A DNA stretch of 10,817 nt from Gallionella sp. (GTDB lineage Bacteria > Pseudomonadota > Gammaproteobacteria > Burkholderiales > Gallionellaceae). The stretch lies in assembly GCA_030690245.1 (NCBI GenBank), contig JAUYGW010000259.1, positions 1-10,817 on the forward strand. The letters are read 5' to 3'. This document shows, in pieces, positions 1 to 10,817 of the stretch; within the stretch, counting starts at the first letter, position 1, and the number at the start of each line of letters is the position of its first letter. A program made the position numbers and the translations under genes. The notes under the pieces were generated by a model that was not told the origin of the DNA, ran no database searches, and saw only the letters and a list, made by a program, of their open reading frames with translations.

Positions 1-256
1 GCTCATCAAACATGGCATTGGCCAGCCAGCTCGCACAGTAAATCCAGACATCCTTGTCTCGCACGGTCGGAAGCCCCGTTGCGCTGGGCGTGATCTCGAA
101 GAACTGACCATCCAGATCGAAGCGTCGAGCCTCCAAATCCCCGGCAGATAAAGCAAAAGGCGTGCAGACGACAGGATGCCTGCTGGCTTTGTCCGCGCTC
201 AATACATCAGCAAAGTAAATGTAGGTGAAAGACGCGGGCGATATGTGAACCGGCAT
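1..256 (-). CDS. Plasmid replication initiator protein, RPA/RepA type (N-terminal part, runs off left edge)
   Basis: The minus-strand frame opens with ATG at 256-254 and stays open to the window edge, giving about 85 residues. The translation contains the segment 'YFADVL', then 'FEITPS', then 'GLPTVRDKDVWIYCAS'. This order and the 'G-x-P/A-T-x-x-DKD-x-x-IYC' signature are typical of plasmid replication initiators of the RPA (Replication initiator protein A) family, which bind the origin and recruit host replication factors. The C-terminal DNA-binding part lies outside the window. No clear Shine-Dalgarno sequence precedes ATG 256. The frame also stays open upstream, with a TTG at 382, but that start would lie upstream of the TATAAT box and palindrome, so ATG 256 is preferred. 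The gene is divergent from the parM-like gene, as in many low-copy plasmid backbones. Family assignment is from recognition of the motif, not a search. Confidence 0.78.
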   Translation of the reverse strand, partial: MPVHISPASFTYIYFADVLSADKASRHPVVCTPFALSAGDLEARRFDLDGQFFEITPSATGLPTVRDKDVWIYCASWLANAMFDE

Positions 257-317: not shown

Positions 318-345
318 AGATTCTCTGCAATTTTGCAGAGAATCT
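318..345. promoter_or_regulatory. 28-bp palindrome, probable rep operator
   Basis: Two perfect 13-base inverted arms (AGATTCTCTGCAA at 318-330 and its reverse complement at 333-345) are separated by two bases. On the minus strand this begins five bases downstream of a TATAAT box, so it would cover the transcription start of the rep gene. Many plasmid Rep proteins repress their own gene by binding an inverted repeat at this place, so an autoregulatory operator is the likely role. In RNA it would form a strong AT-rich hairpin in the leader. It is not followed immediately by a T run in either direction, so a terminator is less likely. Confidence 0.6.
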
Positions 346-383: not shown

Positions 384-594
384 CGTGCTGGGGACGTTCT
401 GTGGGCGTTGTGATGATCTGGTGGTGAGCGGCGTTTTACTTCCAGGTGTGCCGTGGATGCACTGTAGCCGTGCTGATCTTGATGTCGTGAATCCACGCCG
501 TGCTGCACATGTGCTGAGGACGTGCTGTGGCGTTGGTTGGATGCGGTGGCAGCGGTGCAGGCGTACTGGAGACGCTCTGGGGTTGTTGTGAAGT
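384..594. repeat. 11-bp direct-repeat array, candidate parC centromere / par operon operator
   Basis: Twelve 11-base units lie in four groups of three, starting at 384, 395, 406; 447, 458, 469; 499, 510, 521; and 562, 573, 584. The consensus is YGTGCTGnnGA. The best units are CGTGCTGGGGA (384), CGTGCTGATCT (469), TGTGCTGAGGA (510), CGTGCTGTGGC (521) and CGTACTGGAGA (562). Units at 406, 458 and 584 are weak. Group starts are 63, 52 and 63 bp apart, close to whole helical turns. The array ends seven bases before the AAGGAG ribosome site of the parM-like gene. In plasmid R1, parC also consists of 11-bp direct repeats upstream of parM, bound by ParR, so the same role is inferred here: segregation site and autoregulatory operator. 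No convincing -35/-10 pair was seen inside it. Confidence 0.7.
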
Positions 595-612
595 TAATTT
601 AAGGAGAAAGCA

Positions 613-1584
613 ATGAGCGTGATTGGAATGGATATTGGTTACTCGAATCTGAAGATTGCCTATGGCGACAAGGGTGGCAACCCCGTATTGGTGAACCGCC
701 CAGCAGGGGCGGCTCCGTCGGATCACATCGGGCAAAGAATCATGGGGGATGATGATGCTGTGCGAGTTCTGGTGGATGGGCGCGAGTTTGCCGCCGCGAT
801 CAGTCACGACAGAATCGAAAACTGGGCGCGCGAGCTGCACAAGGATTACACCGCAACGGATTCCTACCGTGCGTTGTTTTATTCCGGCCTGCTGCTGTCC
901 GGTTTGAGCGAGATTGACAAGGTTGTGACCGGATTGCCAACCAGCCAATACTTCGATGCAAACCTTCGCGCTCGTCTGGTTGAAACCATGAAGGGCGAGC
1001 ATCAGGTTACGCCGCGCCGGAAGATTGTAGTGAAGGATGTAAAGATCGTGCCTCAACCTCTGGGCGGGTTTGTCGACTACCTGCACGGCCTTGGTGATCC
1101 GAGCCAGATTGAGGATGCCAGTGTTCTGGTGGTCGATCCCGGCTTCTTCTCGGTTGACTGGGTATTGCTGGTCAATGGCGAATTCAAGCGGGCATCATCT
1201 GGAACAAGCCTGGATGCGGCCTCGGTCATTCTGGATGAGGCTGCGGCGTTAATTTCCAGAGATCATGGCGGCAGCCCTGGCAGAGGAAAGCTGGAGAACG
1301 CGATCAGATCAGGACGCAACACCGTATCCGTGTTTGGGGCGCGAATAGATATTGCCCCCTATCTGGCAGATGCATCATCCAGGGTTGGCCACATTGTTGG
1401 CTCGCAACTTCAGGAGTCGCTCAGAAAAGAGGATTCCGACATCGACACGATTGTGCTGGTTGGAGGGGGCGCTCCGTTCTACGAAGCGGCAATCAAAGCT
1501 GCTTTTCAGCAGGTCCCGGTATCCGTTGCCCATGATTCGGTATTCGCTAATGCGCGAGGGTTCTGGCGTGGAGGTGCTGCCTGA
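613..1584 (+). CDS. parM: ParM/StbA-family actin-like plasmid segregation ATPase
   Basis: This 323-residue protein belongs to the actin/Hsp70 ATPase fold. The phosphate-1 motif is at the N-terminus ('GMDIGYSNLKIAYG', with D7 and G9), the phosphate-2 motif is at about 172-183 ('VVDPGFFSVDW', D175, G177), and the adenosine motif is near 280-292 ('IVLVGGGAPFYEA', G284-G286). Length and motif order fit plasmid ParM/StbA proteins, which polymerise with ATP into filaments that push plasmid copies apart. The start is well supported by AAGGAG at 601-606 with six bases of spacing. A 211-bp repeat array lies directly upstream and a small ParR-like gene starts one base after the stop codon, completing a type II partition module. 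The ATG of the partner and the stop of this gene are adjacent, so translation is probably coupled. Confidence 0.88.
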   Translation: MSVIGMDIGYSNLKIAYGDKGGNPVLVNRPAGAAPSDHIGQRIMGDDDAVRVLVDGREFAAAISHDRIENWARELHKDYTATDSYRALFYSGLLLSGLSEIDKVVTGLPTSQYFDANLRARLVETMKGEHQVTPRRKIVVKDVKIVPQPLGGFVDYLHGLGDPSQIEDASVLVVDPGFFSVDWVLLVNGEFKRASSGTSLDAASVILDEAAALISRDHGGSPGRGKLENAIRSGRNTVSVFGARIDIAPYLADASSRVGHIVGSQLQESLRKEDSDIDTIVLVGGGAPFYEAAIKAAFQQVPVSVAHDSVFANARGFWRGGAA

Positions 1585-1585
1585 G

Positions 1586-1837
1586 ATGCGCATCACCATC
1601 AATTATTTCGAGGGGTACCCGGAATTGCAGGCCGACCTGTCTGCTTTTCCGCTGCGCGCCAGAGCGGAACGGATGCGAATGCTTGCCTCGCTTGGCTTGT
1701 CTGTCCTGAATGGCGGGAGGGCAATTAACAATGCTCCGGCAGTTACCCATGTTCAAGAATCTACTCCTGATGCCAGTCAGCCGGCCGCTTTACGCAGTCC
1801 GTCCGGGATCGTGAAGAGCATATTCGATCAGGTTTGA
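1586..1837 (+). CDS. ParR-like small DNA-binding partner of ParM
   Basis: The protein is 83 residues. It opens with a strand-like 'MRITINYF' followed by helical sequence rich in Arg and Leu ('LSAFPLRARAERMRMLASLGL'). The strand-helix-helix layout matches ribbon-helix-helix adaptors and the small proteins encoded just after StbA/ParM genes. The C-terminal half is low in hydrophobic residues and likely disordered, ending 'GIVKSIFDQV', which could be the filament-binding tail. It starts one base after the parM stop. GGAGG at 1570-1574 lies 11 bases from ATG 1586. The in-frame GTG at 1574 overlaps that site and is less likely. By analogy it binds the 11-bp repeats at 384-594, links plasmid DNA to the actin filament and represses the operon. 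The family assignment rests mainly on position and the N-terminal pattern. Confidence 0.68.
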   Translation: MRITINYFEGYPELQADLSAFPLRARAERMRMLASLGLSVLNGGRAINNAPAVTHVQESTPDASQPAALRSPSGIVKSIFDQV

Positions 1838-1921
1838 TGCATGTCGGGGCTTCTGACAACTTGAAGCAGGGTGGCCGTTGATTATGCAAACCTGTCATTC
1901 AGTATCCGAAGAGGAAAAATG

Positions 1922-2152
1922 ATGGAAATACTTGAGTGGACAGGCTGTGCCACCGGGCTGTGTGGGGCGGCAATGCTGGCGTTGAATAATCGCCACTCCG
2001 GCTGGGGGTTTGTCTTGTTTCTGGGATCGAATGTCGCATGGATAATTTTTGGGCTGCTCTCCCACGCAATCGGCATGGTCGTGATGCAAATCGGCTTTAC
2101 CGCAACCAGCCTGGTGGGGATTTGGAAGTGGCTGGTCATGGCGCGCAAGTGA
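1922..2152 (+). CDS. Small PnuC-like integral membrane protein
   Basis: The 76-residue product has about three hydrophobic segments (roughly 7-21, 29-47 and 49-72) and almost no soluble part. The pattern 'EW-G---GL-G', 'NNRHSGWGF', a conserved Gln (Q56) in the last helix and 'GIWKW' echoes one half of PnuC-type vitamin (nicotinamide riboside) transporters, but at about one third of their length. Such short PnuC-like proteins could act as oligomers; substrate cannot be read from the sequence. GAGG at 1911-1914 lies four bases from ATG 1919 and seven from ATG 1922, so the second ATG is chosen. A GTG at 1871 opens the same frame but lacks a good ribosome site and would add a non-hydrophobic tail. 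It sits 84 bases after the ParR-like gene, possibly in the same transcript. Confidence 0.65.
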   Translation: MEILEWTGCATGLCGAAMLALNNRHSGWGFVLFLGSNVAWIIFGLLSHAIGMVVMQIGFTATSLVGIWKWLVMARK

Positions 2153-2276: not shown

Positions 2277-4235
2277 GTGCTTGCAGAATCACACATTAAC
2301 GTTGAGAGGCGCCATCCCATCGCGGTTGAGAGAAAAATAGGACGGCATCACATCGCGTTTTTTCGGTCGATCCTTCTGGGTATGGACATGTGCGAAATGT
2401 CCGACCGGTATCTTGAGACCGGGATGGATTTGCGCCGCGCAAAAACAACGCTGGTCTGGATTCAGGATACGCTGCGTCAGGCGGCATTGAGGCGCGGTAG
2501 GCCAAGGGATGCTCACTTGATGCGGATGCGGATCACGGCGACATCAAGTGCAAACGAGAGCGCACCAGTCCCCTCTCTTGATGAGTACCGCGCAGAGTTT
2601 GATCCTGACGGGTTTTTTCTTGAAAAGGAACTCATACAGTCTTACCTGGCTGCGTACCCGCAAGCGGTCGATACCAGGCACAAGAAAAGACAACGACTGA
2701 TCGACAAGCAGGTGGCAGCACTGAAGTGGATTGAGTCGTTGATTACCGCCGAACCAGTGCGCGATGATTGGGTTGCAGCCTGGTTTGATACGGCGATCTC
2801 AAACCGTCTGAATCTGGCGGGGATACCAACAATAGGATGCCTGGTCGACAGGATTGCTGAACGCGGTTATCGCTGGTGGGTTGGCGTGCCAAGGTTGGGG
2901 GTCAAGGGCGCGGCGCGTATTGTCGCGTGGTTGCGTGGTTACGAGTCCTCTCTTGGTGCGTTGCCGCTGCAATCCCTCGCACCGTCGCGGAGCTTGCCTT
3001 CAGGATTGATTGCTCAAACACGAAAACAGCAGACCGATGTTGTTCCGCTGGAGTCATTCATTGTCCCGTCTGACCTGGATGGCCGATCCGGCTCAAACCG
3101 GTATCCCGGTTCCCCTCGTATTGACGCGTCAGACGATTATCGAGCTGTGTTTGCCTGGCTTGCCACAAAATCCGGCAATCCCAATACCCAGCGCGCCTAT
3201 CAAAAGGAAGCCGAAAGAATCTTGCTGTGGGCAATTCTGGAGCGAGGCAAGGCAATGTCTGATCTGACCGTTGAGGATTGCGCATCCTACCGGGACTGGC
3301 TGTCCATGATGGGTAGAACCGAGGCCGGCAACTGGCCTTTCCGCATCCCTCAATCCGAATGGATCGGCACGAAAAAAATTGAGCGGCACAAGCAGGACTG
3401 GAGGCCGTTTGATGGCGCGCTATCGGCCAGCAGCGTCAGGCACGCGCTGGCAATCATTGGCAATCTCTTCGAGTGGCTGGTTCGCGTGCAGTATTGCTCG
3501 TTCAATCCGTGGAGCGCGGTTGCAAAGTCCCTTGCTGCACATGGCGCCGAATCTGACCCGGATGTGGAGTTTACGCGGGCGTTCTCCGTTGGTCAGTGGG
3601 GTTATATGATGGATCGCTTGCTTGAACTGCCGGCGGCACCTTGCTCGGCCAGACTGCGTTTTGCATTGCCATTCTCACATGCCACGGGGTTGCGACTATC
3701 TGAGCTGGTCGATGCAACCATTGGCCGGATGTACACCATGCCGCTATCGGATGGTTTGGGCGTGCGCTGGATGCTCAAGGTGTACGGCAAAGGCGGAAAG
3801 TGGCGAACAGTGCCATTGCCCGGTGCAGTGATCTTGTTGCTGCAAGAATATCTGGCCTATCGCGGATTGAACTCGGACATCATGACAAATCCAGCGGAAA
3901 CCCCGCTCATTGCCGGTGTGGCGTCAAACAGGCCATTGACTACGAGCGCACTGGCCAAATCGATCAGGTCATTTTTTGGCGACATCGCGCAATCGCTTAA
4001 AGAGAGCGGCAGGCACGTCGAGGCGAAAGCATTTGAACGTGCCACCGTTCATTGGATTAGACACACCTGCGGCAGCTATTTGGCGTTGTCCGGCGTTCCG
4101 GTGAACGTCATTCAGCGGCTGCTTGGGCACGCCAGCCTTCAAACAACAAGCATTTACACCGATACGTCTGATGAAATTTTGTGGCGCGAGGTAGAGGGCG
4201 CGAGACTGGGTGTGGGTAATGCGCATCGACTTTAG
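2277..4235 (+). CDS. Tyrosine recombinase/integrase with large N-terminal extension
   Basis: This 652-residue protein cuts and rejoins DNA through a catalytic tyrosine. All active-site residues of the family are visible in the C-terminal domain: R473 in 'ATGLRLSE', K505 in 'YGKGGK', H592 and R595 in 'HWIRHT', H618 in 'LLGHAS' and Y627 in 'SIYTDT'. The nine-residue step from H618 to Y627 is the same as in XerD. A core-binding SAM-like domain occupies about 285-420 ('NTQRAYQKEAERILLWA'). The first ~270 residues are an added domain unlike XerC/D, resembling the extra N-terminal domain (DUF3701 type) of some plasmid and integrated-element recombinases. The GTG start has GGGAG six bases upstream. 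Likely roles are resolution of plasmid multimers or integration; target sites were not identified. A WGR gene overlaps its 3' end. Confidence 0.9.
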   Translation: MLAESHINVERRHPIAVERKIGRHHIAFFRSILLGMDMCEMSDRYLETGMDLRRAKTTLVWIQDTLRQAALRRGRPRDAHLMRMRITATSSANESAPVPSLDEYRAEFDPDGFFLEKELIQSYLAAYPQAVDTRHKKRQRLIDKQVAALKWIESLITAEPVRDDWVAAWFDTAISNRLNLAGIPTIGCLVDRIAERGYRWWVGVPRLGVKGAARIVAWLRGYESSLGALPLQSLAPSRSLPSGLIAQTRKQQTDVVPLESFIVPSDLDGRSGSNRYPGSPRIDASDDYRAVFAWLATKSGNPNTQRAYQKEAERILLWAILERGKAMSDLTVEDCASYRDWLSMMGRTEAGNWPFRIPQSEWIGTKKIERHKQDWRPFDGALSASSVRHALAIIGNLFEWLVRVQYCSFNPWSAVAKSLAAHGAESDPDVEFTRAFSVGQWGYMMDRLLELPAAPCSARLRFALPFSHATGLRLSELVDATIGRMYTMPLSDGLGVRWMLKVYGKGGKWRTVPLPGAVILLLQEYLAYRGLNSDIMTNPAETPLIAGVASNRPLTTSALAKSIRSFFGDIAQSLKESGRHVEAKAFERATVHWIRHTCGSYLALSGVPVNVIQRLLGHASLQTTSIYTDTSDEILWREVEGARLGVGNAHRL

Positions 4236-4667: not shown

Positions 4668-5291
4668 CTAGCCTTTAATTTCCCTAACTGCTGTGACAGC
4701 CCCACGCAATACAAATATTGCGGAGCGCAGAAAGAGGATGGCGAGTGCCAAACCTACCAATATATCTGGCCAACCTGAATGGGTGTACCACACGCCTGCG
4801 GCAGCAAATAATACAGAGACATTTGCAATAACGTCGTTGCGAGAACACAACCAGACTGAACTCATGTTTATGTCATCAGATCGGTGCCGCCAGAGCAGAA
4901 AAAAACATAAGCTGTTCGCAGCAAGCGCGAGCAACCCAATAACACCAATGGCCTCGAATGCTGGAACATAAGGGAAGAGTATCCTGTAAACCGCCTGACC
5001 TAGAACAAAAAGGCCAAGCATCGCCATAAGGCCGCCCTTAAACAGTGCTGCAATGGCTTTCAACCTCTCGCTACGTGCAACAACGTATAGGCTGAAACCG
5101 TAAACCAGAGCGTCGCCAAGCATATCCAGAGAATCGGCCACTAATGAGACGGAGCCAGAGATCAGTCCTGCCGTAAGTTCCACCAAAAACATAACGGCAT
5201 TGATGGCCAATACTATTTTTAGCGTCGAGCTTTGGCGGGCACGAAGCGCTTCAATCTCACAAGATTTGTCGTTGCAACAATCTGCCATCAT
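4668..5291 (-). CDS. Short cation diffusion facilitator (CDF) family transporter
   Basis: The 207-residue protein has about six membrane segments (near 24-44, 48-72, 80-105, 112-134, 145-169 and 175-197) and lacks the ~80-residue cytoplasmic domain of typical CDF exporters. The N-terminus carries a Cys cluster (C5, C6, C11) that could bind metal. Canonical CDF metal sites use HxxxD in helices 2 and 5; here they read D56xxxD60 ('LDMLGD') and C149xxxD153 ('CSRND'). 'WRHRSDDINM' at 134-143 marks the loop before helix 5. CDF proteins exchange cytoplasmic divalent cations for protons. The altered ligands imply a substrate other than, or broader than, zinc; which one cannot be told. The start is either ATG 5291 or the adjacent ATG 5288, with a weak GGA upstream. 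It lies downstream of the porin gene on the same strand with a ~90-base gap. Confidence 0.82.
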   Translation of the reverse strand: MMADCCNDKSCEIEALRARQSSTLKIVLAINAVMFLVELTAGLISGSVSLVADSLDMLGDALVYGFSLYVVARSERLKAIAALFKGGLMAMLGLFVLGQAVYRILFPYVPAFEAIGVIGLLALAANSLCFFLLWRHRSDDINMSSVWLCSRNDVIANVSVLFAAAGVWYTHSGWPDILVGLALAILFLRSAIFVLRGAVTAVREIKG

Positions 5292-5382
5292 CTATGTCCA
5301 GAAGCTATTCGAAACACACCGTGGCAGATGCATGATCCAGTAAACACCCTATGCAGATATTTTAGCTTCATGACCCTCTCAA

Positions 5383-6639
5383 CTAGAGATTGATTTCAAC
5401 GCGCGCACCTATGATCCATACGTTCTGTCGCGCGGGATTCATATTTGGGTGAGTAACATATTGCACGGTGGGTTGAAACGCGAGCCACGGATTAACTTGC
5501 ATGCGGTAGGTCGCTTCAGTGCTTGTTTCGCTACTCAGGCTCACGTTGAGGCGCTGATAAGTGGCGCTGGCATGACTGACGGTAACTCCAATGGCCGAAA
5601 TATCGTCGTCACGTCCGGCAATCAGGCCGTGGTAGCGCAAGCCAATACTTCCCGTCCAATCCGACTGATGGATATCTTTACTAGCTACGCCGTAACGAAT
5701 GAAACCGGACAGCCCCTGCGCAGGATGGTCCTTTTCATTCATCAGGGTGCGTTCCGCCAGGAAATAGGCACCCTGACTTGGGTGAAGTACGGGATTGAGA
5801 GGATCCAGGTCGTTAAAACGTGTGGAGTAACGCCAAAAACCGATTGCTGTTTTGTTGAAGTATTCCCTTTCCTCGGGCAGTATGGTACCGGTTTGGTCGG
5901 GCTGCGGAGTAAGTCCGAGTTCCACAATGGAAAGCGTCCCGTCGCCCTTGTTCAACTGAATATGTGTGCCGCGCGGGTTATTAGGGTCTCCCGGCACACC
6001 ATCAGTCAGCGCATATTGAGCATAAAAGTTTTTGCTAGGCGTGGTGTACTTCACACGTAGCGCCAACGCGCCAACTGGGAAGATAGGCGGGGCGTTCATG
6101 CCTGACTGCCCCAAGTCATTTGCCATGCCATAAGGAGTCTGGGTAAACACACTGGATGTGTCGTTGACGTAAAACTCGGAATCTATCGCATATAGGCCGA
6201 ACAGCACCGACAGGGTTTCGTCAGAGAAGCCCTTTTGTACCCAGGCTTGAAAAAACTTTGCAGTGTTGTTCGACTCAATGTTGTCCACGATGACGAAGCT
6301 ATCAACGTAATCGCGGTTAAATTTGCTGCCGAGTTGGCTGTGATATTGAATGTAGGCAGAGGTGGCGTCCCATCCCAGCAATTTTTCCAGGTTCATCTTG
6401 ACCCTGGCTTCGGTGTTGCCCATCCATGCTGTGCCACGCTTGACGCCACCCGACAGGTTAGACAGAACATCGCTCTTGTGGGTAAATCCCAGATCAACAC
6501 CCTCTTTATACAAATCAGAACGCATCCCGCCCCAATCACCGGAAAGCGTCTCGGCATTCCAGTCTGGCCCCTTATCTTCTTCGGCTAAAACAGAACCAAC
6601 GCAACCAATAGCCATAACAAATGCCAATACATACCGCAT
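5383..6639 (-). CDS. oprB: OprB-family outer-membrane porin
   Basis: The 418-residue precursor starts with a signal peptide ending 'SVLA' (cut after residue 19, before 'EEDKG'). The mature N-terminus has the OprB hallmark 'ETLSGDWGGMRSDLYKEGVDLG', whose 'LSGDWGG' is highly characteristic. Alternating hydrophobic strands follow, and the chain ends in a strand 'WIIGARVEINL', as in beta-barrel porins, although the usual terminal Phe is Leu. OprB porins form 16-strand channels for sugars and other small solutes. The start is set at 6639 because GGGAG lies directly against the ATG at 6645 but seven bases from the ATG at 6639. Its position downstream of a Czc operon suggests a role in envelope permeability during metal stress or carriage of an unrelated solute; the sequence does not decide. 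The 169-base upstream gap could hold its own promoter. Confidence 0.88.
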   Translation of the reverse strand: MRYVLAFVMAIGCVGSVLAEEDKGPDWNAETLSGDWGGMRSDLYKEGVDLGFTHKSDVLSNLSGGVKRGTAWMGNTEARVKMNLEKLLGWDATSAYIQYHSQLGSKFNRDYVDSFVIVDNIESNNTAKFFQAWVQKGFSDETLSVLFGLYAIDSEFYVNDTSSVFTQTPYGMANDLGQSGMNAPPIFPVGALALRVKYTTPSKNFYAQYALTDGVPGDPNNPRGTHIQLNKGDGTLSIVELGLTPQPDQTGTILPEEREYFNKTAIGFWRYSTRFNDLDPLNPVLHPSQGAYFLAERTLMNEKDHPAQGLSGFIRYGVASKDIHQSDWTGSIGLRYHGLIAGRDDDISAIGVTVSHASATYQRLNVSLSSETSTEATYRMQVNPWLAFQPTVQYVTHPNMNPARQNVWIIGARVEINL

Positions 6640-6683
6640 AACCATCTCCCTTTTTCACGCACATTATCCAACGACAACGCATG

Positions 6684-6710
6684 GCTTGGCTGTCGAAAGT
6701 TGGGCCAAGC
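6684..6710. repeat. Small inverted repeat upstream of the porin gene
   Basis: GCTTGGC at 6684-6690 and GCCAAGC at 6704-6710 are perfect 7-base arms with a 13-base loop. It lies between the lipoprotein and porin genes. There is no T run after it on either strand, so it is not a standard terminator; a regulator site for the porin gene is possible. Confidence 0.3.
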
Positions 6711-6808
6711 TGCTCAGAATATCTCCTTACCCAAATCTCATAATCCCTTCACAAAACATGCAACGACTTGGCTAGCACAGAGACACCTCCACCATTTATT
6801 CTTAAGCG

Positions 6809-7234
6809 TTAATCAAAATGTACCGGGAATGCGGCCCCGGCCTGATCCTTACAAACGCCCGCTGGTTTCACGCCAAATTTCCACATCAAACGGCACGCGA
6901 CTTCATGTCCATCAGCGGATTTAGCAGTTGTCTCAACGGAGTAAACCACATGATCGGTGTCTTGGCCGGAAAAAATCCGATTCCAGTGCTTCGGGTTGGA
7001 GCCATGATAGCGTTTACGCAACTCCGCTAAATTAGTCTGGCGATCGACAACAAAGCCACGAGCCTCATAACGACGATCCGGCGCCTCCAGCACTAGAAGG
7101 TTGTCCTCCCCTCGGTCATGCACCAGCTCCCCAGTAACAAACGGTGCACTGCCTTCCTTGACTAACAGGTGAGTTGGACCAGCGCAACCAGTCAGCCACA
7201 AAATTGCCAGTATGCCCAAGTAAAATGTTTTCAT
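6809..7234 (-). CDS. Small outer-membrane lipoprotein of unknown function
   Basis: The 141-residue precursor has a lipoprotein signal peptide with lipobox 'LTGC' (C17), after 'MKTFYLGILAILW'. The residue after the Cys is Ala, which favours outer-membrane sorting by the Lol system. The mature part is polar, with a predicted beta-rich region ('PFVTGEL', 'LLVLEAPDRRYEARGF') and two further Cys (in 'VACRLMW' and 'AGVCKD') that could form a disulfide in the periplasm. I do not recognise a named family. The start at 7234 has AAAGGA six bases upstream; an ATG 15 bases earlier would give an unnaturally polar N-terminus. It lies 98 bases after the CzcC-type gene and before the porin gene, all on one strand, so a role in the same metal-response locus is likely but inferred. 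Confidence 0.72.
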   Translation of the reverse strand: MKTFYLGILAILWLTGCAGPTHLLVKEGSAPFVTGELVHDRGEDNLLVLEAPDRRYEARGFVVDRQTNLAELRKRYHGSNPKHWNRIFSGQDTDHVVYSVETTAKSADGHEVACRLMWKFGVKPAGVCKDQAGAAFPVHFD

Positions 7235-7332
7235 GGTATTTCCTTTCATTATTAAAAATCGGTAGTGTGGTGGCGCGAAGTTTGAGCAGTATCGAGCGCA
7301 CGCCGGATAGCGCCGAACCGTAAGTGGTTTGA

Positions 7333-8625
7333 TCAGTAGTGATTAGCATGATGTACGTCTTCCTCATTACCTAACGGCCATAGTTGGTGGGCATCCAGCA
7401 GCAGGCGATAGCGCGCTTCGTTGGCATCGAGTTGCGCGAGGTTTTCCGCTATTGAAGATTCCAGCGCGAAGCGGCGTGCGACGAGGCTGTCCGACAAGCT
7501 GCTTTCTCCCAGGCTATATGCCTTGCCGACCAGTTCGGTATTGCTGCGGATCGCCTGTGCCGCCTCGTGCGCTTGTTGCCAAGTGGCAAAGCTGCTCACT
7601 GCTTGAGCATGTGCGGCGTAGATGTCGCCTTCCAGACGGCGTTTGACAAATGCTTCCTGATCGGCGGCGATGGCGGCTTGTTGTGCGACCCCATCAGCCG
7701 TCGCGCTGCGTTGCCCAAAAGAGAGCGGCACGCTGAGATATACGCCGGTCACTTTTTCGTTGCCGCTCGCTTCATTTGCGTAGCGTACACCGACAGTGGG
7801 GTCGGGCAGTTGGTCGGCGCGACTGCGTCGTGCCAGCAGTTGTTGCACATGGCTTTGCTCCTGCACCATGCCGAGTTCGTGGTTGTGTTCGAGTATGCGC
7901 GACTTCCAAAACGCGAAGTCATGCTCGACGGTTTGAGGTATCGCGGGCGGCAATTTTTCCGGCAAATGGATGGCGGGGAACTGGCGCGTCAGATCATTGC
8001 CCGCGAGTTGTGCGCGCAATTGGGCTTGATGCCATGACACGCTGGCTTGTGCGGCGGCAGCTTGTGCCTGATTCAATTCCAGCTTCGGCGCATCGCCTGC
8101 CTTGACGCGCTTCTCGGTCATTTGCGCTTGCTGCTTGAGAATGTCTACTTGCTGTTGCCACAGGTTGACCTGTGCCTGCTCGCGTTGCCATGCGAACCAC
8201 AGTTGTAGCAGCGTGCGCACGGCTTCATGGCGCGTACCGCCGAGCGCGTATTCGGCGCGTGCGACACTGGCAGCGCCAATGTCTTCATCAATGCCCACCT
8301 TGTTGAACAGGCGCAACGGACGTTCCAGTGCGACATCCCATTCCTTCAGGTTCTGCCCTGCATCAACAATCTTGCGTTGCCCCGTACCGGCGCGCAGATT
8401 GAACTCATAATTTCCGCTGTTCCACTTGCGCTGATTGGCGTGTTCCATTCTTAACTCGTTGGTAGCGTTCAGCACCGTGAGGTGTTGGTTCAAGGCGCTT
8501 TCAATTTGCACCGGTGATGGCAGATCGGGGCGGTTGATTTCTCCAGCATTGGCGAGGCTGCTGAACAAAGTCAGACCTAATAGACCGCTTCCCACCCCCC
8601 ACTTTTTACTCCCGCTCCGTTTCAT
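7333..8625 (-). CDS. czcC: CzcC-type outer-membrane channel of an RND metal efflux system (TolC family)
   Basis: The 430-residue precursor has a signal peptide ending 'ANA' (cut after residue 27). The mature protein contains two long helical repeats rich in Ala, Gln and Glu (for example 'QWFAW'-like 'LLQLWFAWQREQAQ', 'AQAAAAQASVSWHQAQ' and, in the second half, 'ANEARYRLLLDAHQLW'), as in TolC/CzcC outer-membrane factors that form a trimeric channel across periplasm and outer membrane. Conserved strand text 'DPTVGVRY' and 'GVYLSVPLSFGQR' marks the second outer-membrane hairpin. It ends with a His-rich tail 'DVHHANHY'. ATG 8625 has GGAGG five bases upstream and overlaps the stop of the DUF3240 gene by ATGA, fixing the start and showing tight coupling. 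It would dock to the CzcA pump whose gene lies upstream. Confidence 0.88.
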   Translation of the reverse strand: MKRSGSKKWGVGSGLLGLTLFSSLANAGEINRPDLPSPVQIESALNQHLTVLNATNELRMEHANQRKWNSGNYEFNLRAGTGQRKIVDAGQNLKEWDVALERPLRLFNKVGIDEDIGAASVARAEYALGGTRHEAVRTLLQLWFAWQREQAQVNLWQQQVDILKQQAQMTEKRVKAGDAPKLELNQAQAAAAQASVSWHQAQLRAQLAGNDLTRQFPAIHLPEKLPPAIPQTVEHDFAFWKSRILEHNHELGMVQEQSHVQQLLARRSRADQLPDPTVGVRYANEASGNEKVTGVYLSVPLSFGQRSATADGVAQQAAIAADQEAFVKRRLEGDIYAAHAQAVSSFATWQQAHEAAQAIRSNTELVGKAYSLGESSLSDSLVARRFALESSIAENLAQLDANEARYRLLLDAHQLWPLGNEEDVHHANHY

Positions 8626-8945
8626 ATCAACCTCCCGAACTCGATCACCGGCGTGATCCAATAGTTCATTTCTGGATTGTTTTCTTCACGCTTGAGATGA
8701 GCAACTAGCGCGTGCGCATCGTCCAGATTCATCACGGTCTGGAGGGCGACGCGCTGTGAGCGTCCGCGTACTTGTTCGATCATGCTCGACAATGCTTCTT
8801 TTTGGCTGCCGCCTTCCATCTTGAACATAGTGAAGCCACGCACCCATTCGGGATGTTCCAGCAGGTGATCTATCAGCCGTTCTTCCAGTGAGTGATGGCA
8901 GACCAGCGTCAAACAGCAATTCATTTCTTTCATTTGATTTTTCAT
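8622..8945 (-). CDS. DUF3240 family protein (small PII-like protein of Czc operons)
   Basis: The 107-residue protein has no signal peptide or membrane segment and so should be cytoplasmic. It fits DUF3240, a family regularly found beside CzcA genes and predicted to adopt a small alpha-beta fold like PII/CutA proteins. The first strand carries C10, C11, C16, H17 and H18, a plausible soft-metal site. The middle 'GFTMFKMEGGSQ' resembles the flexible loop region of such folds, and 'RVALQTVMNLDDAHALVAHLK' is a strand-helix unit. It starts with AAGGA six bases before ATG 8945 and overlaps both neighbours by four bases (ATGA), between pump and channel genes. A metal-sensing or pump-regulating role is inferred; no biochemical function is assigned here. 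Confidence 0.8.
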   Translation of the reverse strand: MKNQMKEMNCCLTLVCHHSLEERLIDHLLEHPEWVRGFTMFKMEGGSQKEALSSMIEQVRGRSQRVALQTVMNLDDAHALVAHLKREENNPEMNYWITPVIEFGRLI

Positions 8946-10817
8946 TTGATTTCCTTGGCACGTTCGAGGCCGAAGCGGCGGTACAGGATGGGCAGCATGA
9001 TGAGCGTCAATAGTGTCGAGCTGATCAACCCGCCTATCACAACGATGGCAAGCGGTTTCTGAATTTCTGAACCGGGACCGGTGGCAAACAACAGCGGCAA
9101 CAGCCCCAGAGCGGTGATGCTGGCAGTCATCAGCACCGGACGCAGGCGGCGCTTCGCGCCTTCAAGCACGACTTGGTCAATCGCTATACCCTCGGCATGA
9201 AGTTGGTTGAAGTAGGACACCATCACCACACCGTTAAGCACCGCAATTCCCAACAACGCGATAAAGCCGACCGAGGCGGGCACCGACATATATTCCCCGC
9301 TCACCCACAAGGCCAGCACACCGCCGATCAAGGCAAACGGGATATTGGTCAGCACCAGCACGGCTTGTCTCACGGAACCGAAAGTGGCGAACAGCAGCAT
9401 GAAAATCATGCCCAGCGCCACAGGAATAACGATGGTGAGCCGTGCAGCCGCACGTTGCTGGTTCTCGAATTCGCCACCCCAAGTCAAGTGGTAACCTTCC
9501 GGCATCTTGATTTGCGCGGCGACGGCGACTTTGGCTTCATCGACAAAACCCACCAGATCGCGCTCGTGCACATTACTTCGCACCACCACCATGCGTTGGC
9601 CGTTTTCCCGGTCAACTTTGACCGGGCCATCCACGCGCTCCAGTTTGGCGACCGCCGACAGCGGCACGCTTTGTCCGCCGGGTTGCGGCAGCGTGAGCGC
9701 GGCAAACAGCGCGGGAGATCGTTGAATGTCACTTGAACCGCGCATGACCAGCGGAGTGCGTCTCCCACCTTCGATCACGATGCCGAGTTGCTGGCCTTCG
9801 ATCTGGCTGTGCAGGGTATTGCCGATATCGTCTACGTTCAAACCCAAACGGCCTGCCGCGAGGCGGTCAATCGTTACGCGGTAATACTGCACGCCACTAT
9901 TTTCCGTGGTGTAGACATCCTGGCTGCCCTTGATGCCTTTCAGCACCTTGACCATTTGTTCGGCGGTCTCGTTGAGTTTATCCAAGTCCGTACCAAAGAT
10001 TTTAATCGCCACATCACCTCGTGCGCCGGTCAGCATTTCCGAGACACGCATTGCGATGGGTTGGGTGAAGCTGTAGGAAACACCCGGCATTTGATCCAGC
10101 ACCTTGCGCAACTCGCCTAGCAGCCATTCCTTGTTCGGCTCACGCCATTCTTCCATGGGTTTGAGCACCAGGAAGGAGTCGGTCTGGTTAAGACCCATTG
10201 GATCGAGGCCCAGTTCATCTGAACCGGCACGCGCCACGATGCTTTTGACTTCCGGCACTTGCGCCATGATGGCCTGTTGAATTTTCAGGTCGAGCGCCGC
10301 CGTTTGTTCCAGACTGACGGAGGGTAGTTTTTCGATGCCGACGATGATGTCTCCCTCATCCATTTCCGGCATGAAGGTCTTGCCGATCTGAGTGTACACG
10401 GCGCCGGTAACGACCAGCATGGCCAGCGCGCCGATAATCACCACACGTTCTTTGTTCAAGACGCGTTGCAGCAGCGGCGCATAAATACCCATTGCCTTGC
10501 GCACCAGCCACGGTTCCTGATGGCTGACCTGCTTGAGCAAATAGGAAGCGAGCGTCGGCACCACGGTCAGCGACAGCAGCAGCGATGCAGCCAGCGCGAA
10601 CACGATGGTCAGCGCTACCGGAATAAATAGTTTGCCTTCCAACCCTTGCAGGGTCAGCAACGGCAAGAACACGATAATGATGATAGCGACCCCGGCGGCA
10701 ACGGGCGTAATGACTTCTTTCACCGCGCGAAAAACGATATGCAGATGCGACAATTTCCCGATATTTTTATCGTGCGCCAGATGCGACTCGATGTTTTCCA
10801 CCACCACGACCGCCGCG
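8942..10817 (-). CDS. czcA: CzcA-type heavy-metal RND efflux pump, C-terminal part (runs off right edge)
   Basis: About 624 residues are present; the 5' part lies past the right edge. The visible part begins in membrane helix 4 at 'AAVVVVENIESH', whose Glu is one of the charged residues of the proton relay in CzcA. Helices 5-6 follow ('AAGVAIIIIVFLPLL', 'LTIVFALAASLLLSLTVVP'), then the second periplasmic domain with HME signatures 'KTFMPEMDEGD', 'LNQTDSFLVLKP' and 'QPIAMRVSEMLTGARGD', then helices 8-12 ending 'LIMLPILYRRFG'. Together this is the heavy-metal-efflux branch of RND pumps, which export divalent cations such as Zn, Co, Cd or Ni from the periplasm or cytoplasm by proton exchange. 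The exact metal cannot be fixed. Its stop overlaps the DUF3240 start (ATGA). The adaptor CzcB should be encoded further upstream. Confidence 0.93.
   Translation of the reverse strand, partial: AAVVVVENIESHLAHDKNIGKLSHLHIVFRAVKEVITPVAAGVAIIIIVFLPLLTLQGLEGKLFIPVALTIVFALAASLLLSLTVVPTLASYLLKQVSHQEPWLVRKAMGIYAPLLQRVLNKERVVIIGALAMLVVTGAVYTQIGKTFMPEMDEGDIIVGIEKLPSVSLEQTAALDLKIQQAIMAQVPEVKSIVARAGSDELGLDPMGLNQTDSFLVLKPMEEWREPNKEWLLGELRKVLDQMPGVSYSFTQPIAMRVSEMLTGARGDVAIKIFGTDLDKLNETAEQMVKVLKGIKGSQDVYTTENSGVQYYRVTIDRLAAGRLGLNVDDIGNTLHSQIEGQQLGIVIEGGRRTPLVMRGSSDIQRSPALFAALTLPQPGGQSVPLSAVAKLERVDGPVKVDRENGQRMVVVRSNVHERDLVGFVDEAKVAVAAQIKMPEGYHLTWGGEFENQQRAAARLTIVIPVALGMIFMLLFATFGSVRQAVLVLTNIPFALIGGVLALWVSGEYMSVPASVGFIALLGIAVLNGVVMVSYFNQLHAEGIAIDQVVLEGAKRRLRPVLMTASITALGLLPLLFATGPGSEIQKPLAIVVIGGLISSTLLTLIMLPILYRRFGLERAKEIK

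Follow-up and report, generated by a model that had tools for sequence, protein, structure and literature searches.

The window, a stretch of 10,817 nucleotides of Gallionella sp. analysed at its full length, carries an array of 11-bp direct repeats between a replication initiator gene and a gene for an actin-like protein. This raises the question of what the array does, and whether its arrangement as four clusters of three units represents a probable new layout of the parC centromere, as an earlier note had claimed. We consider the array most probably (at roughly 0.88) to be the parC centromere of a SrpMRC-like type II (actin) partition system belonging to an RPA-replicon mobile element. This reading follows from the phasing of the array, the gene order array-parM-parR, the homology of ParR to SrpR and the published binding of SrpR to srpC. 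The features are as follows.

2..256, minus strand: 5' portion of an RPA-family replication initiator gene (PF10134 RPA, E=9.9e-07), truncated at the window edge and divergent from parM
318..345, no strand: near-perfect 28-bp palindrome in the rep/array gap, present at one place only in its own genome
371..376, plus strand: AATAAT upstream of the array, conceivably the -10 element of parM
384..416, plus strand: cluster 1, units 384, 395 and 406 (consensus and weight matrix)
447..479, plus strand: cluster 2, units 447, 458 and 469 (consensus and weight matrix)
499..531, plus strand: cluster 3, units 499, 510 and 521 (consensus and weight matrix)
562..594, plus strand: cluster 4, units 562, 573 and 584 (consensus and weight matrix)
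384..594, plus strand: the complete array, a proposed parC centromere of srpC type (z=4.7 at lag 11, 6.05 at lag 115)
601..606, plus strand: AAGGAG, parM ribosome binding site (sequence reading)
613..1584, plus strand: parM, SrpM-like actin-like protein of 323 aa (PF17989 ALP_N, E=2.4e-31; ATG at 613)
1586..1837, plus strand: parR, 83 aa, SrpR homologue and proposed array binder (34-sequence alignment)
1919..2152: small membrane-protein gene (open reading frame; weakly NMN_transporter-like, below cut-off)
2277..4235, plus strand: tyrosine recombinase with DUF3701, 3' of parMR (PF00589 and PF12482)
4668..10816, minus strand: metal-efflux-like cluster (cation diffusion facilitator, OprB porin, outer membrane efflux protein, DUF3240, RND pump)

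All twelve units lie where the earlier note had put them, in triplets starting at 384, 447, 499 and 562. Nine match the consensus YGTGCTGnnGA at seven or more of its nine fixed bases, and the remaining three (458, 573 and 584) match six. With a leave-one-out weight matrix, no more than 0.35% of background positions score as high as a given unit (empirical p 0-0.0035), values that are flattered by the prior choice of the units. The next in-phase candidates are weak by the same matrix (417, p 0.014; 551, p 0.029), and at its 99.5th percentile the full matrix returns from 360-612 only the twelve units on the plus strand and a single site, 512, on the minus strand. The lag-11 self-match of 379-600 is 90 against 59.4 +/- 6.5 (z=4.7), a score as high being found in 0/2000 dinucleotide shuffles and in 1/2119 windows of equal length taken at 5-bp steps, the one match starting at 381, within the array itself.

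The strongest lag in the array is 115 (54% identity, z=6.05, 0/2000 shuffles), and the maximum over lags 2-129 is likewise matched by none of the 2000 shuffles. One 115-bp block occurs twice in diverged form, as clusters 1-2 and as clusters 3-4. The cluster distances of 63, 52 and 63 bp had been given correctly, and their symmetry arises because the block (63+52) is present twice, with no need for a special design. The warning that simple repeat finders could miss the degenerate units largely holds for Tandem Repeats Finder, which reported only 383-409 of the array, but a short-seed search did recover five copies of a 35-nt repeat there. A coding reading of the array (open reading frame 385-591) was rejected, as a period of 11 bp does not keep the reading frame. 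The array ends at 594, just 5' of the parM ribosome site as had been noted, and direct repeats in this place upstream of parM are what the sequence of a type II locus would present, their centromere role being putative.

The reported actin and ParR-like genes do follow the array. The match of ParM to PF17989 lies above the family cut-off, so that the window has the actin-like motor gene of a type II locus, and its scores against TIGR03739 PRTRC_D and StbA_N fall below theirs. Relatives at 44-46% identity occur in SXT/R391-type loci and an IncC plasmid; by tblastn the SXT/R391-type ParM is 46% identical over residues 1-322, which relates the protein to SrpM. Plasmid records with a ParM relative at E<=1e-5 number 1424, and a PDB sequence search with ParM gave no match at E<=0.01.

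For ParR, we aligned the window protein with 33 of 38 references, these being downstream open reading frames of the relatives with five near-duplicates omitted. Across all 34 sequences, SXT/R391-type SrpR included, E13, L14, R24, R26, E28, R29, R31, L33 and G37 are invariant, followed by a variable linker and a short C-terminal stretch; a homologue of SrpR thus lies directly 3' of parM. A profile search yielded 468 homologues, and among the 120 listed none has a Pfam domain and the named ones are hypothetical or uncharacterized. No family cut-off was reached by six ParR proteins against Pfam or three against NCBIfam, the 83-aa ParR alone had no tblastn match among plasmids, and a PDB sequence search with the alignment gave one unrelated match only (E=1.3). 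The AlphaFold2 model of ParR has helices at 12-19 and 23-41 (pLDDT block means of 84-88 for residues 11-40), a lower-confidence C-terminal helix at 73-81 and an extended N terminus. There is no paired strand in the ParR models, and Foldseek with the window model found no PDB match; the model is compatible with a strand-helix-helix arrangement plus a tail helix, and a ribbon-helix-helix fold is only putative. Three relatives (L003:3984-4646, L107:3981-4568 and P0027) encode longer ParR proteins (190-221 aa) that contain the SrpR core as a tandem pair and are possibly single-chain dimers; P0027, folded in search of an internal ribbon, gave helices and no strands (mean pLDDT 62.1, pTM 0.31).

The closest described system is SrpMRC of the SXT/R391 ICEs, in which SrpR binds srpC, located upstream of srpM, and plasmid stabilisation needs srpM, srpR and srpC (PMC4489591, Carraro 2015). 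As far as we searched, this is the one description in the literature of a centromere from the SrpMRC-like family. The window shares with it the order centromere-parM-parR, the related ParM and a homologous ParR. It differs in having twelve direct units in four clusters, whereas the published srpC repeats are four, of 13 bp and in mixed orientation (PMC4489591), and in lying beside rep instead of mobI: the traG-like/mobI-like context of SrpMRC is replaced by an RPA rep upstream and a recombinase downstream.

The RPA rep begins with an ATG at 256-254 by sequence reading, and full-length homologues occupy the equivalent place in two near relatives, L029 and L033 (E=5.6e-47 and 9.4e-46). Upstream of rep, L029 has a gene for an SXT-type TraD coupling protein (422-2239), so that the rep-parM element carries an SXT/IncC-like transfer gene. 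Tyrosine recombinase genes likewise stand 3' of parMR in L038 (with DUF3701) and L062. The genomes that share the parM upstream region with the window include Gallionella and Candidatus Nitrotoga among others. The DNA of 1919-2152 is about 68-71% identical to hypothetical genes of Azospira, Cupriavidus, Comamonas, Acidovorax and Denitratisoma plasmids, and the minus-strand genes of 4668-10816 look like metal efflux genes.

A parM promoter may lie upstream of the array at AATAAT, a motif that, by eye, all 10 aligned near relatives keep directly ahead of their first unit and that the outgroup L010 lacks; a sigma-70 promoter scan of 200-700 gave no match. The same scan gave one weak terminator-like site, inside cluster 4, and an Rfam scan of the window gave no match. 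The 28-bp palindrome could be an operator, a recombination site or a hairpin. Palindromes also occur upstream of parM in L017, L019, L021, L062 and L065, though not in all clades; their sequence varies by clade while the palindromy is kept, and the longest, in L017 and L019, consist of two 27-bp arms without a spacer, 54 bp in all.

The 11-bp period itself extends far beyond the window. We collected 109 loci with a ParM match and counted lags in the 81 distinct ones, with identical upstream regions counted once and L024, L026 and L081 (ParM start missing) and L109 (upstream too short) omitted; a locus containing a masked stretch contributed its upstream DNA and was excluded from the protein alignments. 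Upstream of parM, lag 11 ranks first in 65/81 loci, window included. By ParM identity, this is so in 9/10 loci at >90%, 13/13 at 70-80%, 2/9 at 55-62%, 16/21 at 47-54% and 25/28 at <47%, with mean lag-11 z of 3.9, 4.2, 1.7, 3.2 and 2.5 over the same classes, against -0.38 further upstream (36 loci). Another lag comes first in 16/81 loci, and the 55-62% class is weak. One IncC plasmid has a lag-11 z of 4.9 (0/500 shuffles). In L106, L074 and L076 no 150-bp stretch upstream of parM reaches a z of 2.5, a value reached in shorter stretches in L003, L057, L107 and L108. In L072 (Nitrosomonas mobilis) a strong lag-11 signal (z=5.8) comes from positions -450 to about -300, farther from parM than elsewhere and beyond the range of the first scan.

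The motifs obtained by expectation maximisation were degenerate or noisy, and this method was replaced by the lag statistics and a fixed template. The latter is the unit GTGCTCTGGCG, present in head-to-tail copies on the minus strand of the Azospirillum plasmid L108. Over 82 loci (shorter upstream regions were admitted and L109 kept) it detects 262 sites where 61 are expected, and p<=0.05 is reached in 56/82 loci and missed in 26/82. In the 80 loci with the 600 bases required for controls, the array region has 259 sites, compared with 54 for the far upstream region and 58 for the downstream one, and the reversed template finds 25. Near-identical SXT/R391-type loci are numerous and weigh heavily in these totals; without the ParM class at <=50%, which also holds the template source, there remain 147 sites against 51 over 48 loci. 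In the SXT/R391-type loci there are four sites, of which one lies on the strand opposite to the other three; in number and mixed orientation they resemble the published srpC 13-bp repeats. The label itself is probably right for L077-L105, given their shared ParM, ParR and upstream sequence. For some of these loci it draws on the published occurrence of SXT/R391 ICEs in Marinomonas (PMC5122569).

In the window GTGCTCTGGCG finds only three sites (p=0.11), opposite in strand to three out of four SXT/R391-type sites; by this weak match the window unit is a diverged version. The parMRC of IncA/C plasmids has a related ParM (44%) and the upstream period mentioned above, but differs in its unit, which read by eye has a AAGCAATC core; L109, the IncC locus, has no GTGCTCTGGCG site. 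The relation between IncC and SXT is restated in PMC10954446 and PMC4542580. The literature found on the SrpMRC-like family holds no description of an 11-bp phased array, and the 11-bp unit common to much of this ParM family is a more valuable result than the layout.

Three other explanations of the array have to be weighed against a centromere. The array fills the rep-parM gap and could be read as iterons of the neighbouring RPA initiator, forming part of oriV; plasmid iterons often repeat at steps of about two helical turns. We give this very little credence. Units of the same family lie 5' of parM both where the neighbour is rep (window, L029 and L033) and where it is mobI (L062, L046 and L050), which speaks against a tie to the initiator; in L034, L043 and L038 the upstream neighbour belongs to no recognised family. 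Moreover, the GTGCTCTGGCG unit marks the SXT/R391-type sites, whose published role is SrpR binding (PMC4489591).

A role mainly as an operator, controlling parMR through ParR or a plasmid activator with no centromere function, would suit the position immediately 5' of the parM ribosome site and has a parallel in the control of SXT srpMR by SetCD (PMC4489591). It is just as improbable in our estimate, given that srpC is needed for stabilisation even with srpMR under Plac (PMC4489591) and that twelve units over 211 bp, in our judgement, exceed what an operator usually needs. The 115-bp duplication, together with losses of about 126 bp in relatives, indicates that the array is prone to recombination, and the repeats might on that ground be taken for a non-functional expansion by replication slippage. 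This is the least credible of the three, as the 11-bp period and related units persist over clades with 44-95% ParM identity. A centromere of the SrpMRC-like kind is the reading we carry forward.

How far the four-by-three layout is kept was judged from the near relatives, 10 distinct loci with ParM identity of at least 94% and an intact upstream region; L026, a contig fragment at 96% with the parM start missing, was omitted. The layout is present in 3/10: the window, L004 (= L027) and L033; in each of the latter two the matrix finds one additional hit out of phase. By weight matrix the other seven have two clusters, of 2+3 units in L029, L005, L007, L032, L009 and L008 and of 2+4 hits with a small insertion in L025. 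Between the last unit of a cluster and the first unit of the following one, five of these loci have a step of 41 bp, L009 one of 40 and L025 one of 39; the corresponding step inside the two blocks of the window is 41 bp. The distance separating the first unit from the last cluster is 178 bp in the window and 52 in L005, and this difference of 126 bp (115+11) is as expected from recombination between units 395 and 521.

Cluster starts are spaced 63/51/64 in L004 and 63/50/63 in L033, so the outer steps are kept and the central one drifts. Among the three four-by-three loci, 15/132 unit positions and 16/79 spacer positions are variable, the units being only slightly more conserved. The ParM tree sets the window and L027 apart from the other eight (support 77) and places L033 with loci that have short arrays (path support 30, 20 and 67), and L010 (ParM 79%) retains, by eye, a block like cluster 2. 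An ancestral long array with later losses would be the simpler history, to which these data lend weak support. The four-by-three layout is not a stable class. The earlier note was thus right about the kind of element, a parC-type centromere by parM and a ParR-like gene, as borne out by SrpR homology and the widespread 11-bp period, and its new layout fails as a class: it recurs in only 3/10 near relatives, and distant clades have other unit numbers, partly in opposite orientation. By its sequence, the window array is real, centromere-like and SrpMRC-like. The L025 locus (= L030, on a Candidatus Nitrotoga sp. HW29 contig) has an open parM and a truncated ParR frame of 57 aa, and a second copy of the locus in that genome, L006, encodes a ParR of 83 aa.

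The R1 parC has five plus five repeats. It is split around the promoter, and parC is known in continuous and split forms (PMC5016525); the contrast drawn earlier with R1 holds as far as the published description goes. An R1-type layout, two groups flanking the promoter, is not what the window has, with its four clusters and a parM promoter that may lie upstream of them all. Repeat lengths are 11 bp in R1, 10 bp in pB171 and 20 bp in pSK41 (PMC9426499). The tubC of TubZRC also has its centromere repeats in two or three blocks (PMC5016525), but it serves a tubulin-type motor and a winged-helix TubR. For the Bacillus AlfAB centromere, the literature search found only a passing description.

We tentatively propose the following mechanism. 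ParR (1586-1837) would bind the 11-bp units as dimers side by side, and since neighbouring units are slightly more than one helical turn apart, the dimers would follow one face of the DNA with a slow twist. At 10.5 bp per turn, clusters 63 bp apart would return to the same face. Spacers could then be looped out, like the promoter loop of the split R1 parC, and the bound clusters joined into one superhelix, successive clusters helping ParR to assemble a single wrapped complex that exposes its C-terminal tails. The ends of ParM filaments may capture these tails and push sister plasmids apart, and ParR bound near the parM start probably also represses parMR. The ParR superhelix has 12 dimers per turn (PMC5016525), which equals the number of units in the window, yet most close relatives have about five, so twelve is not a fixed need.

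A broader and more speculative reading, to which we would give a little under even odds as a whole, is that all SrpR-type ParR proteins read one 11-bp unit (approximately GTGCWSTnGnG, diverged in IncC) in helically phased clusters. It would redefine srpC of SXT/R391 and parC of IncC as 11-bp iteron arrays, which grow and shrink by in-register recombination between units. The window, with its twelve units, would then hold an enlarged array, one that could accommodate roughly one turn of a pSK41-like 12-dimer ParR superhelix.

With the 11-bp unit, the binding site of a widespread partition family gains a definition that can be tested. Close relatives with twelve versus about five units amount to a natural experiment on the number of units that a centromere needs, and variants of the centromere may decide which elements can coexist.
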